This document shows positions 20,119-41,882 of a DNA stretch of 64,000 nucleotides, in pieces. Numbering within the stretch: position 1 is the first letter of the stretch; each line of letters begins with the position of its first letter. Both the position numbers and the translations under genes were made by a program. The DNA is from Synechococcus sp. C9 (lineage in GTDB: Bacteria > Cyanobacteriota > Cyanobacteriia > Gloeomargaritales > Gloeomargaritaceae): NCBI RefSeq assembly GCF_022984075.1, contig NZ_JALAAD010000001.1, positions 1,778,455 to 1,842,454 of the forward strand. Reading direction: 5' to 3'. Under the pieces are notes generated by a model. It was not told the origin of the DNA and ran no database searches. It worked only from the letters and a program-made list of their open reading frames with translations.

Positions 20119-22914
20119 TTAAACCAAATCCCGGCGTTTTTGCAAAAAGGGCACCGCCACCAACATGACCAGGATCAATAGACCCAAATTGCGCCAACTG
20201 GTTAACACATTGGCATTGAACAACGGCCCATGATCCTTACGAAAGGTATCGAGCAAGCCTTCCGCTTCGTTGATGGAACGACTGCGCCGCTGTTGCCAAT
20301 CCGTGAATTTATCCTGCCAAGCGGTGATTTGTTGCTGGTAGATTTTCATTTGGTTCTGATAGTCCCGCAGGGTATCCCGGAAGGTGGCAAAGGCCGCCGG
20401 GTCATCCGGCACCTCCCCTGGCTCGGCGGGTTTGGTGGGTTTGACTGGCTCCGGTTCATCCACTGCCGAATTGTACCGACTGCGAATCCCCGGAAATTCA
20501 CATTGGCGAAACACATTAGCACCCAGACATTGACAGGTTTGTAATTCTGCCGCCGTCAAGGCTTTGCGGGCCGCCGCATCCTTCTGCCAACAGGGGTCCT
20601 GGATCAAATCCCGCCCCATCCCGGATAGGCTCACCAGGGCCTCGTAGGGCCAGCGGATCACCGACACCTGGGAAAGTAATTTGGCGCCGCCCCCCATACC
20701 CGTCACGGGCTGAATCCCGCCGCTGAAAATAATCATCGGCACCAAAAATAAAATACTCAGCAGGGGTGCCATATTCTGGTTTGGTGCCAGAGCGGAAACA
20801 AACAGCCCCATTACCATCCCGCCAAAGGTCGCCAGGGCAAAGGTGACATACATTTGCATGACTACGTCCCAACCGCCGGGAATGTCCACCGCTAATTTTT
20901 TCACAAGTAAAAAGACCGCCCCCTGATAAGCGGCAAATAGCACCGCCAACGACACCTTGGAGGCAATGTAGGGAAGCAATTGTAACCCCACCATCCGTTC
21001 CCGACGGTAAACCTCCACCTCCTTCACCAGGTCCCGCATGGTGGTCAATTCCCCGATCAATACTGCGATTAAGGCACTCACAAACAGCATGGTCATGGAC
21101 TGGGCCGCATTGCCCGTGTCCGTGTTAAAAATATGCCGATCCCAAGCGATAAAATCCAACAGCCCCAGCAACACCGGGGTCAGCAAAATCAAAGCGAAAC
21201 TGCCCATATCCTGTTGCAAAATCGCCACATTCCGGCGCAGGAGGATCAGAAATTGCCGCCAAGGGGAAATCCCCCGGTTCAGCACCCGCTTCTGGGGGGT
21301 TTGGGGCCGCAGACCAGAGGTTTTGGGCTTGACCATCTCCTGGAGGGATTGCTGCCGCTCCAGCACATATTGACGATACTGAGGCGAGGCTAGGTAGGCT
21401 TCCTGGAGTTGGATGGCCGTGGGCGCCTGGGGGTTCTTTTCCCGGTCCAACGCCCGATAAATGCCGGTAATATCCCGAATGTGAAACGGTGCCAAGGCGG
21501 TGGCAAAATTTTCCAGAAAGTAGGGCACTAATTCCTCCGGTGGGCCAAAATAGGCGACCCGGCCCCCCTCTGCCATATAAATCACCAAATCGCACAGGGC
21601 AACATTTTGGGTGGCATGGGTAATCAGCAAAATCGTCCGCCCCTGATCCGCCAACTGGCGCAGGAGTTCCATCATGTCGGTTTCCGTGCCGGGGTCAAGA
21701 CCAGACGTGGCCTCATCCAGGAAAAACAAACTCGGTTTGGTGAGCAATTCCACCCCGATACAAACCCGCCGCTGTTGCCCACCGCTGAGGCTTTTCACCG
21801 GCACATCCCGCCGCTGGGTGAGACCCAATTCCGCCAGCACCTCGTTAATCCGCTGTTGCCGTTCCTCTGGGCGGGTATCGGCAGGCATCCGCAACTGGGC
21901 GGCAAAATCCAAAGACTGGGCAACGGTCAATTCCTCATGGATGATATTTTTCTGGGGCACATAGCCAATTTCACTGTGGTAGGCGTTGAAATTTCGGTAC
22001 AAATCCACCCCATTCACCATCACCGTCCCGCCGGTGGCCGGGCGCAGACCATTTAGGGCATCCAACAGCGTGGATTTGCCGGAACCGGAAGGCCCCAAAA
22101 TCGCCACAAATTCCCGGGGCATGATGGAAACCGATACCCCATTCAGCACCTTGGCACCGGATTTGACCACCTTGCTCAAATTCAGGGCATCCAGCCGCAG
22201 GTTCCCCACCTCGTTGGTCTGAACCAGGGTTTCGTTAATATTTAGTACTAATAAATGCGACCCAATCCGGATCGTATCCCCCGTCCTCAGGGTAAAGGGG
22301 GCGGTAACTTGTTTGCCATTGACGTAGGTGCCGTTGGTGGAACCCAAATCCGTCAGGACAAAGGAACCCTGCTTGCGCTCCACCCGGGCGTGGTACCGGG
22401 ACACGGTGGGGTGGTGAATCACCAAGTCATTTTGGGGGTCCCGGCCAATGGTGAGCATCTGGCGTCCCCGCAGGTCCAAAATCGCCGGTTGGGCATCCAC
22501 GAGGGGCAGGGGGTCATCCCCTAGCAGTACCGTTTTGCCACTGTCCCCCGGACTGGTTTGGCGGGTGGCGGGCTGGTCGGGCACCACCACTTGGTAGCCC
22601 AGGGTGACCCGGTTGCCAATGCTCAACACATCCCCGTTACGCAGTTCGTGCTGTTGCACCCGCTGCCCGTCATAGACCAAGCCATTGCTGCTGTTCAGGT
22701 CAATGATTTCGTAGCCGGTGGGACGACGCTCCAACCGAGCATGGCGACCGGAAACCACGCTTTCTTCAATGACAATATCGCAGGTGGGATGCCGCCCCAA
22801 AAGCAAGGATTCCCCCGTCAATGGCACCTTGCGGGTAGATTCGGGGGTGGTAATGACCAAAAAGGACAGGCCGGTTTGGGTCGGGCTGTCGGGGGGGGAC
22901 GACATAGGGGTCAT
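20119..22914 (-). CDS. FHA-FHA-ABC-2 fusion transporter
   Basis: 931 residues. Two FHA phosphothreonine-binding domains (about 20-110 and 140-230) each carry the GR...SR/GRHA...N-G pattern (LLLGRHPTCDI, 'SVVSGRHARLE', 'LNSSNGLVYDG'). An ABCG-type ATPase follows (about 240-480) with Walker A GPSGSGKST, signature LSGGQQRR and Walker B 'LFFLDEATSGLD'. The C-terminal ABC-2 permease (about 570-925) has five or more helices and a long soluble loop rich in Pro, Glu and Gln before the last helix. The architecture implies export gated by Ser/Thr phosphorylation; cargo is unknown. A single gene with no partner. Confidence 0.88.
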   Translation of the reverse strand: MTPMSSPPDSPTQTGLSFLVITTPESTRKVPLTGESLLLGRHPTCDIVIEESVVSGRHARLERRPTGYEIIDLNSSNGLVYDGQRVQQHELRNGDVLSIGNRVTLGYQVVVPDQPATRQTSPGDSGKTVLLGDDPLPLVDAQPAILDLRGRQMLTIGRDPQNDLVIHHPTVSRYHARVERKQGSFVLTDLGSTNGTYVNGKQVTAPFTLRTGDTIRIGSHLLVLNINETLVQTNEVGNLRLDALNLSKVVKSGAKVLNGVSVSIMPREFVAILGPSGSGKSTLLDALNGLRPATGGTVMVNGVDLYRNFNAYHSEIGYVPQKNIIHEELTVAQSLDFAAQLRMPADTRPEERQQRINEVLAELGLTQRRDVPVKSLSGGQQRRVCIGVELLTKPSLFFLDEATSGLDPGTETDMMELLRQLADQGRTILLITHATQNVALCDLVIYMAEGGRVAYFGPPEELVPYFLENFATALAPFHIRDITGIYRALDREKNPQAPTAIQLQEAYLASPQYRQYVLERQQSLQEMVKPKTSGLRPQTPQKRVLNRGISPWRQFLILLRRNVAILQQDMGSFALILLTPVLLGLLDFIAWDRHIFNTDTGNAAQSMTMLFVSALIAVLIGELTTMRDLVKEVEVYRRERMVGLQLLPYIASKVSLAVLFAAYQGAVFLLVKKLAVDIPGGWDVVMQMYVTFALATFGGMVMGLFVSALAPNQNMAPLLSILFLVPMIIFSGGIQPVTGMGGGAKLLSQVSVIRWPYEALVSLSGMGRDLIQDPCWQKDAAARKALTAAELQTCQCLGANVFRQCEFPGIRSRYNSAVDEPEPVKPTKPAEPGEVPDDPAAFATFRDTLRDYQNQMKIYQQQITAWQDKFTDWQQRRSRSINEAEGLLDTFRKDHGPLFNANVLTSWRNLGLLILVMLVAVPFLQKRRDLV

Positions 22915-23214
22915 GGATAATGATTCAGCAACGGTCTATCGCTCCTCACACGTTTATTAAGGTATAACGAATCCCAGGCTTTTGGCAAAGTTCAGCCATC
23001 CCCCTCCCAAGCACTACAACAATTCCAGAAGATTCATGTGAATAACCAGGTTACTTAAAACCAGGAACGGGGCGATGCCCTCGGACTTTTAATTTTCTAA
23101 ATTTAAAGTTTAACTCACAATTCAAATATGATTGCTACCGAGAGATTACCAAAATGCTGGATGTGCACCCCCGCATGGAGATTGGGCATCCGCTCAGCCA
23201 ATGGGTGCTTTGGT

Positions 23215-39934: not shown

Positions 39935-40951
39935 ATGACCTTGGATGGTGAGGTACTGGAACTGAATCCCGGTGCGGCTCGGAGCCGGTTGATTCTGCAT
40001 ATTAACGGGGTGACCGCCGGGGTGGATAACCACCAACGGGACCTGCAAGCCCTCCAGCGCATGGCGCCCACCGCCCATATCCGGGGGGTACACAACGCCA
40101 GCTTGGGATGGCAAACGGATGTCCTCGAGAGCATTCTCGGTCGTTCGGAGTTGTGGCAATACCAGCAGGATACCGGGGAAACCCAGCAACGGCTGGCGGG
40201 CTATAGCCAACTGCTCCAGGAATTACTCCGCTGTCCGGATTTGCCCCCTACGGCAGACCTGCACCAATACCTCCCCCACGCCGCCCCTGGCACGGGTTTA
40301 TTGGATGGGGAACTGCTCCGCCAACTGCCGTTTATCAACCAACTCACCTGGCAGGATTTGCTCAAGTACCTCTACGGGGACTACCCGGCGGGAGCCTCCT
40401 GTGCCACCCTGCGTTTAGCCTATGAACTCGCCCAGGGGATTCATGCGGGGGTACCGGTGCTGGTGGTTGCCCACAGTCAAGGGCTGATCATCACCGCCCT
40501 GGCGACCCATATCCTGGGGCATTTTTTCGGCACCTATACCCGCTGGCAGGAGCAGGTTTTTATCCTGGGCTACGGACCGGTGATTCTCCTGGAGGAATTG
40601 CCGCCGGGACTGCGGGGGCAAACGATTTTGATCCAGGATCGCCATGACCTGGTGGCGGAAGCCTTTAGCAATATGCGCTACACCGACTTTTGGAATGTCC
40701 TGCAAACCCAATTTTGGCGCACCATCCAACGCCTTAACCAATTGCCCCAATTGGCTCGCCCCGATAGCCAGCACAGTGCCAGTTACTACCTGGGTTTACT
40801 GGGTACCCCTGCCAGCCGTCGTTCCGGGCAACTGATCCAGTATTTTGTCAGTCAGGAATGGCTGAAAAACCCAGTCATTGACCACTTCCGGGGGATTCGG
40901 TTCATCCTGGAAGACCTGGTGCCGGGGGGAGCCTTGGCGGTTAAGAATTAG
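39935..40951 (+). CDS. Alpha/beta-hydrolase-like protein of unknown function
   Basis: 338 residues. A central 'VLVVAHSQGLIITA' resembles a nucleophile elbow with Ser in A-H-S-Q-G, and an early strand 'RLILHINGVTAG' resembles the oxyanion-hole strand of lipase-like folds. A 'LIQDRHDLV' near the C-terminus could supply the acid. No family name can be given. It directly follows pepA on the same strand with an ATG seven bases after its stop. Confidence 0.6.
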   Translation: MTLDGEVLELNPGAARSRLILHINGVTAGVDNHQRDLQALQRMAPTAHIRGVHNASLGWQTDVLESILGRSELWQYQQDTGETQQRLAGYSQLLQELLRCPDLPPTADLHQYLPHAAPGTGLLDGELLRQLPFINQLTWQDLLKYLYGDYPAGASCATLRLAYELAQGIHAGVPVLVVAHSQGLIITALATHILGHFFGTYTRWQEQVFILGYGPVILLEELPPGLRGQTILIQDRHDLVAEAFSNMRYTDFWNVLQTQFWRTIQRLNQLPQLARPDSQHSASYYLGLLGTPASRRSGQLIQYFVSQEWLKNPVIDHFRGIRFILEDLVPGGALAVKN

Positions 40952-41014
40952 TAGAATCAGCAAATTTCGGCATTTTCGGGCTTTTATGCCAAGAAATTCT
41001 TATCAATGGAGAGG

Positions 41015-41044
41015 GTGACAAACCCGTAAATCTGCTGTTATAGT
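41015..41044 (+). promoter_or_regulatory. Sigma-70-type promoter of the sRNA candidate
   Basis: GTGACA (41015-41020) and TATAGT (41039-41044) are separated by 18 bases. The transcript would start at about 41051. Confidence 0.65.
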
Positions 41045-41050
41045 AACCCT

Positions 41051-41120
41051 AGTGTGTGAGGAGCGAACCAGAAGGGACACCGAGACGAAACACGGCCAGT
41101 CGTCGGTGTCTTTTCTGCTT
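41051..41120 (+). ncRNA. Small RNA candidate, possibly Yfr2-like
   Basis: About 70 nt. A 14 bp stem (41070-41083 with 41103-41116) contains GACACCGA/TCGGTGTC and ends in TTTTCTGCTTT, a rho-independent terminator. The 5' unpaired segment holds GUGUGAGGAG (41054-41063), the exact complement of CUCCUCACAC, the core of the cyanobacterial sRNA Yfr1. Yfr2-family RNAs are short, stem-loop-terminated and proposed to pair with Yfr1, so a Yfr2-like identity is an inference. No ORF overlaps it. It lies about 100 bp after the hydrolase-like gene. Confidence 0.6.
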
Positions 41121-41193
41121 TATATCAAAGTTTTTAGATAAAATTTTTCTCCCCCCAAAGTCGTGATCAATTTATGTGTGGTTGTTTGAATAT

Positions 41194-41580
41194 ATAGCAG
41201 TCCTATTCGATTAACGCACAGAAATTCTCCAGAACCACGAACGGGGGCGGTGCCCCTGCGACCCCTATTCTATTCTCATTTAGGATTGCTATGGGAATCC
41301 TATTTGATTAACGCACAGAAATTCTCCAGAACCACGAACGGGGGCGGTGCCCCTGCGACCCCTATTCTATTCTCATTTAGGATTGCTATGGGAATCCTAT
41401 TCGATTAACGCACAGAAATTCTCCAGAACCACGAACGGGGGCGGTGCCCCTGCGACCCCTATTCTATTCTCATTTAGGATTGCTATGGGAATCCTATTTG
41501 ATTAACGCACAGAAATTCTCCAGAACCACGAACGGGGGCGGTGCCCCTGCAACTGGTGTTCTAAATGGCTCTATTTCCCC
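41194..41580. repeat. Four tandem 97 bp mini-element units
   Basis: Units start at about 41201, 41298, 41395 and 41492. Each holds ATCCTATTTGATTAACGCAC, the core CGGGGGCGGTGCCCCTGCG, and TCATTTAGGATTGCTATGGG. The first three are nearly identical; the fourth diverges after the core (AACTGGTGTTCTAAATGG). The unit is one TATAGCAATCC-type element, so the array is a head-to-tail multimer. Confidence 0.85.
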
Positions 41581-41620
41581 GTCCATGAATGATGCTCTTC
41601 TAACCAGCCTTTCCACTCAA

Positions 41621-41750
41621 GGGCATCTCTATATTATTTGAGCCAATCCATAGCCTGCGTGGCGTAGCCATAAATCTCATCGTGGGAATACTCATATTAC
41701 CTAGAACCAAGGGCGCTACGACCGCTAACTTTGAATTGATAGAGGTGCCC
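41621..41750. repeat. Dispersed mini-element, GGGCAYCTCTAT type
   Basis: GGGCATCTCTATATTATTTG at left and TTGATAGAGGTGCCC at right. It carries the block 'AGCCTGCGTGGCGTAGCC' and a reduced core (GGGCGCTACGACC). Same class as 3120-3231. Confidence 0.7.
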
Positions 41751-41882
41751 TATCCAGCGTTCCCGCAAACTGCGTGACTTGTATGATCAACGGGGCTTCC
41801 AAAAAGTTGGCCCGGTAGATCATTACTCCCTTGAGAAACAATGGGTTGCAGGGCAGTTGATGACCCCACAACCCTAGCCAAG

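Follow-up and report, generated by a model that had tools for sequence, protein, structure and literature searches.

What is the small RNA that appears to be encoded in a long intergenic gap of Synechococcus sp. C9, and would it pair with the cyanobacterial regulatory RNA Yfr1? The first-pass annotation of this 64,000-nt stretch of DNA (hereafter, the window) had proposed a 70-nt small RNA (sRNA) with a 5' part complementary to Yfr1. Our analysis shows that the sRNA is a member of the known Yfr2 (Cyano-1) family, and we put at about 0.83 the probability that it is a Yfr2-family RNA of class II (defined below) that pairs with and titrates Yfr1; titration in this organism is argued by analogy with other cyanobacteria. 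The sRNA is ordinary in kind, and the idea of pairing with Yfr1 is not new, since the Yfr1-Yfr2 interaction has already been published for Prochlorococcus in 2019 (PMC6778093) and for Nostoc in 2020 (PMC6974561). What is added here is class II itself, a tightly conserved sub-group that looks to be the less familiar part of the finding.

The sRNA gene and its family

The sRNA gene lies in an intergenic gap of 931 bp (40952-41882; initially given as 930 bp). Its features are as follows.

41015-41044, forward strand: putative sigma-70-type promoter, -35 GTGACA, 18-nt spacer, -10 TATAGT (consensus scan)
41050-41119, forward strand: class II Yfr2/Cyano-1 sRNA gene, about 70 nt (scores of RF01701 and model R1)
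41054-41063, forward strand: core GUGUGAGGAG, exact complement of Yfr1 CUCCUCACAC (sequence and pattern search)
41064-41068, forward strand: linker CGAAC, paired in the cofolded complex (CGAACC in 52/62 class II copies)
41069-41117, forward strand: terminal hairpin with the 12-nt loop GAAACACGGCCA at 41087-41098 (fold and class II covariation)

The promoter was found as first described, with 10/12 consensus matches, and its spacing puts the probable transcript start at 41050-41053. In the 52 class II loci compared, the promoter positions A -33, T -13, A -12, and T -8 (relative to GTGTG) were each kept in 77-83%, and the sRNA would be transcribed from this promoter in Synechococcus sp. C9. The predicted fold corrected the 14-bp terminator stem of the first-pass annotation: the hairpin comprises 18 pairs, arranged as 15 + 3 around a one-base bulge, and the fold has a z-score of -2.7 against shuffles. 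This hairpin presumably serves as the intrinsic terminator; a simple terminator scan left it unflagged because its 12-nt loop exceeds the limit of 8 used by the scan. Two further claims held, namely that the 5' part is single-stranded (GUGUGAGGAG was mostly unpaired in the predicted monomer fold, with weak local pairing only) and that GTGTGAGGAG at 41054-41063 is an exact reverse complement of the Yfr1 motif. By chance, 0.07 occurrences of GTGTGAGGAG would be expected in the window and the pattern search observed two, at 41054-41063 and 22942-22951. In the whole 2.96-Mb genome the core 10-mer occurs four times: in the yfr1 gene, in two Cyano-1 copies, and at the 22942 site.

A covariance search with the Yfr2 family, suggested earlier as a check, placed the sRNA above the cut-off of RF01701 (42.1 versus 41 bits) over its full length (1-69/69), and this was the only above-cut-off Rfam match in the window. 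RF01701 is named Cyano-1 in Rfam, a name linked to the Yfr2 family (PMC8400943). A second Cyano-1-type copy elsewhere in the genome scored 36.9 bits, under the Rfam cut-off. Yfr2 RNAs have an unpaired conserved 5' end, a conserved 12-nt loop, and a long stem broken at position -4 (PMC2662882). All of these traits are present in the sRNA, the first as the mostly unpaired GUGUGAGGAG and the others as the loop GAAACACGGCCA followed by three closing pairs and then an unpaired base.

Several observations were made around the locus. The upstream neighbour (39935-40951, forward strand) encodes a 338-aa protein that matched no Pfam or NCBIfam family and whose pattern scan gave matches in Gloeomargarita relatives only. 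It is 98% identical to a protein of Gloeomargaritales cyanobacterium VI4D9 and 82% identical to one of Gloeomargarita sp. SKYG116, which marks the organism as a close relative of Gloeomargarita; the sRNA is kept at the same position in both of these and in a third MAG. At 41201-41550, immediately downstream of the sRNA, a 97-bp unit is tandemly repeated 3.6 times (98% match); it may be a dispersed repeat because a similar sequence (tatagcaatcctacttgattaatgaacagagattc) occurs close to where the yfr1 locus ends. Many class II promoters across families share (G)GGGTGACAAA around -35 (e.g., L198, L199, L202, and the window at 41012-41024), possibly a candidate site of a common regulator.

The second GTGTGAGGAG site in the window (22942-22951, reverse strand) is the only one in the genome outside the yfr1 and yfr2 genes. 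It precedes an FHA-domain ABC transporter gene (20119-22914, reverse strand) in sense orientation, at a distance of 27 nt from the ATG, and is itself preceded by a TATACC-like box some 10 nt away. With GUGUGAGGAGCGAUAG at its start, the leader of this gene would resemble a Yfr2 arm; it is a candidate for a target of Yfr1, or else for a decoy.

Yfr1 and the predicted duplex

The first-pass annotation had made its proposal depend on Yfr1 being encoded in the same genome, and a single Yfr1 (RF01116) was found there with 44.2 bits, above cut-off. It sits between the thioredoxin (trxA) and IMP dehydrogenase (guaB) genes, the usual address of yfr1 (PMC6778093). In the predicted fold of Yfr1, CGUUCACUCCUCACACCACACU lies exposed, flanked by a stem on either side. 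Folded singly, the sRNA and Yfr1 have energies of -25.8 and -27.3 kcal/mol; cofolded they reach -75.5 kcal/mol, a gain of about -22, with the class II hairpin left whole and the 5' stem of Yfr1 shortened by about two pairs. The predicted duplex consists of the 10-bp core, one C-A mismatch, and then GAAC of the linker paired with the GUUC that lies just 5' of the Yfr1 core; at its other end it runs about two pairs past a one-base gap.

Plain full-length duplex energy without accessibility proved useless as a control, as GC-rich windows win; pairing with the Yfr1 single strand only was used instead. Among about 32,000 windows of 22 nt across the 64 kb, the sRNA leader ranked second in how well it pairs with the single-stranded part of Yfr1, slightly outscored by one unrelated GC-rich window alone. 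The family match, the presence of Yfr1, and the accessible complementary strands support the direct pairing first proposed, and predicted structures suggest that the sRNA would bind Yfr1 in Synechococcus sp. C9. The Yfr1 motif had been called nearly invariant, which applies to the core on both RNAs; compensatory changes, proposed as a further check and looked for here, were uninformative in the core for this very reason.

A conserved class within the Yfr2 family

The Yfr2-type matches compared, drawn from 84 genomes plus three named Gloeomargarita records, fall into two sequence classes. Class I has a variable linker and the arrangement ...GUC-GAAACACGGCAA-GAC..., whereas class II, to which the sRNA belongs, has the linker CGAAC, a stem base CAG...CUG, and the arrangement CCGA-GAC-GAAACACGGCCA-GUC-G-UCGG. 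The split was drawn from patterns chosen after viewing the sequences and then tested with a covariance model (R1) trained on 37 class II sequences. R1 scores placed 107 genomes at 66-97 bits, followed by a gap and then the class I copies below 60 bits; about 30 of these 107 genomes had supplied seeds and match by construction, which does not hold for the remainder. The sRNA, itself among the seeds, scored 92.4 bits. In the class II stem, 99.5% of pair cells were intact versus 90.3% in shuffles, and 9/15 pairs had changed on both sides versus 5.3 in shuffles (37 sequences). The core GUGUGAGGAG was identical in 56/62 class II copies. In three genomes (G157, locus L233; G143, L227; G056, L223) it is replaced by GUGUGGGGAG, an A-to-G change that keeps the pairing with Yfr1 as G-U.

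Class II was present in 107/129 Cyanobacteriia genomes outside family f19 and in 0/57 inside it, counts that rest on one sample of 386 genomes and fast filters. We infer f19 to be the Prochlorococcus/marine Synechococcus group, which its Yfr1 type and its Yfr1-less members fit. Among the matches listed, there was one class II copy per genome in all except Gloeomargarita. As for the families as a whole, both Yfr1 and Yfr2 were found in nearly all of the 186 sampled Cyanobacteriia and hardly outside them. The plasmid collection gave no match, and a literature search by sequence strings found no paper with those of class II. An exact 18-mer search of viral contigs gave one match, which lacked the loop and scored only 22 bits; it was taken as chance.

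Synteny was examined in the 47 class II loci whose flanks spanned 2 kb or more, seven of them from Gloeomargarita. Of the other 40, 35 adjoin one or both of two genes and 17 have both. Upstream on the same strand is a gene related to ArgS anticodon-binding proteins (27/40), with a weak NCBIfam match to NrtL, and downstream, convergent, is a Cof-type HAD hydrolase gene (PF08282; 25/40). The two Gloeomargarita copies sit away from this address. Class II might be an ancient, separately inherited Yfr2-family orthologue with a single copy per genome, a fixed address in most lineages, and a linker adapted to prolong the pairing into the 5' flank of the Yfr1 core, and would then be a dedicated Yfr1 antagonist absent from f19; we hold this tentatively, at a little under even odds.

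RF01701 scores of most class II copies were only 31-42 bits. At the gathering threshold, Rfam detected 1/6 class II loci, by 0.4 bits, and left 5/6 unmatched. Because most copies score under this threshold, genome annotation probably misses most of them.

The linker, Yfr1-less genomes, and other partners

GUUCA precedes the Yfr1 core in 60/62 pairs. A changed Yfr1 flank occurred in two genomes (G318 and G056), and both also belong to the ten copies whose linker differs (Fisher p = 0.024, uncorrected for relatedness), a suggestive co-departure of linker and Yfr1 flank. Family f19 is also consistent in this respect, being without class II and having Yfr1 without GUUC in the genomes read, although it is a single clade. 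Extended pairing is a plausible reason for the conserved linker and not a stronger one, because in eight copies the linker changed while Yfr1 did not, and no change restores pairing. The C-A mismatch is kept in the class II linker though a U would pair perfectly, which we count against the reading of the sRNA as a Yfr1 sponge.

Five genomes (G112, G348, G163, G221, and G093) have no convincing Yfr1 match, yet at least GUGAGGAG of the Yfr1-complementary core is retained in their main Yfr2 copies (Yfr2 loci L068, L074, L078, L025, L073, L070, L071, L069, L075, and L079). Yfr1 therefore cannot be the sole reason for the conservation of the core. G093 lacks Yfr1 though its genus-mates carry it.

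This retention of the core bears on the strongest alternative, in which the arm GUGUGAGGAG acts mainly on mRNAs or another RNA and Yfr1 is one among many partners, the two RNAs being halves of a wider network rather than inhibitor and target. Yfr10 and many mRNAs are further partners of Yfr2 in Prochlorococcus, where Yfr10 binds Yfr2 and a Yfr2 pull-down yielded 404 enriched peaks with 302 mRNAs assigned (PMC6778093). But small amounts of Yfr2 already block Yfr1-mRNA pairing (PMC6778093), and the clearest match of the arm is by far the complement of the Yfr1 single strand. We regard this alternative as a genuine contender that nevertheless has the odds against it.

The loop raises another alternative. 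It is strictly conserved and lies outside the Yfr1 duplex in the cofold, a point against the sponge reading, and in class II it and the closing GAC/GUC are invariant or nearly so. The loop GAAACACGGCCA, with its GGA-like motifs, could bind a protein and leave the 5' arm secondary, much as a protein-binding role was proposed earlier for the Yfr2 bulge and GGA motifs (PMC2662882). Against this, an RsmA-type partner was not found in cyanobacteria (PMC2662882), and conservation is equally strong in the 5' arm and the loop; we consider this alternative unlikely. Coincidence, that is, an unrelated hairpin and terminator behind a Yfr1-complementary 10-mer, might be suspected from an Rfam score only one bit above cut-off, but the low score is an effect of class and the same arrangement recurs in more than 100 genomes with compensatory stem changes, so that covariation and phylogenetic spread refute it and we give it next to no weight.

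Proposed role of the sRNA

In Prochlorococcus, Yfr2 pulls down Yfr1, restores the expression of a PMM1121 reporter that Yfr1 represses in E. coli, and blocks the pairing of Yfr1 with ppa mRNA, while Yfr1 protects Yfr2 from RNase E (PMC6778093). In Nostoc, Yfr1 and Yfr2 shift each other in gels, which demonstrates interaction only (PMC6974561). We propose that the sRNA acts likewise because it has all the features needed. It would be made from its own promoter as one long hairpin, also the terminator, leaving the 5' arm single-stranded. This arm would pair with the unpaired centre of Yfr1 through the 10-nt core and a 4-bp extension with the GUUC flank. Since such pairing would hide the same bases that Yfr1 itself uses on its mRNA targets, the sRNA could serve as a sponge, titrating Yfr1 and relieving these targets.

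Gloeomargarita is the closest known living relative of plastids, and the Yfr1-Yfr2 pair is here confirmed in it at the level of genes, family membership, and predicted pairing. Two groups can be told apart in the Yfr2 family: class I, with several copies per genome, and class II, which is for the most part single-copy and syntenic. For genetics, a single-copy class II member offers a cleaner target than the yfr2 genes examined to date, which are multi-copy. If class II is indeed a dedicated Yfr1 antagonist, that antagonist is missing from f19, the group that yielded much of what is known about how Yfr2 works.

Comparison with known systems

The Yfr2 family was reportedly defined by Gierga et al. 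in 2009 (RNA Biol 6:222). Its members (Yfr2-5 of Prochlorococcus MED4 and Yfr2a-c of Synechocystis 6803) share with the sRNA a 5' unpaired stretch complementary to Yfr1, the 12-nt loop, the long stem broken at -4, an own promoter, and a length of about 70-90 nt. According to the family description, they are transcribed individually from their own promoters and are highly abundant. In the description of eight members, the stretch that separates the two motifs lacks conservation of both sequence and length, whereas the class II linker is fixed as CGAAC; that lack of conservation is a descriptive trait and no exclusion criterion, and the conserved linker marks class II as a sub-group of the family. 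The loop-closing pairs also differ, being GAC/GUC in class II versus GUC/GAC in the Yfr2 family. Finally, class II has one copy per genome, Gloeomargarita excepted, and a conserved address in most lineages, whereas yfr2 genes are described as often multi-copy and as occurring at unconserved loci (PMC6778093); these, too, are descriptive traits only.

Yfr1 (RF01116), with two stem-loops and the core between them, is the target of the sRNA rather than the feature itself. The two RNAs are both near-universal in cyanobacteria, have complementary invariant cores, and are both encoded in this genome. RNA sponges or anti-sRNAs in general include the ChbBC trap for ChiX and SroC for GcvB. These titrate a regulatory sRNA by base pairing, as proposed for the class II sRNA, but they are mRNA fragments, whereas the class II sRNA is a stand-alone conserved gene.
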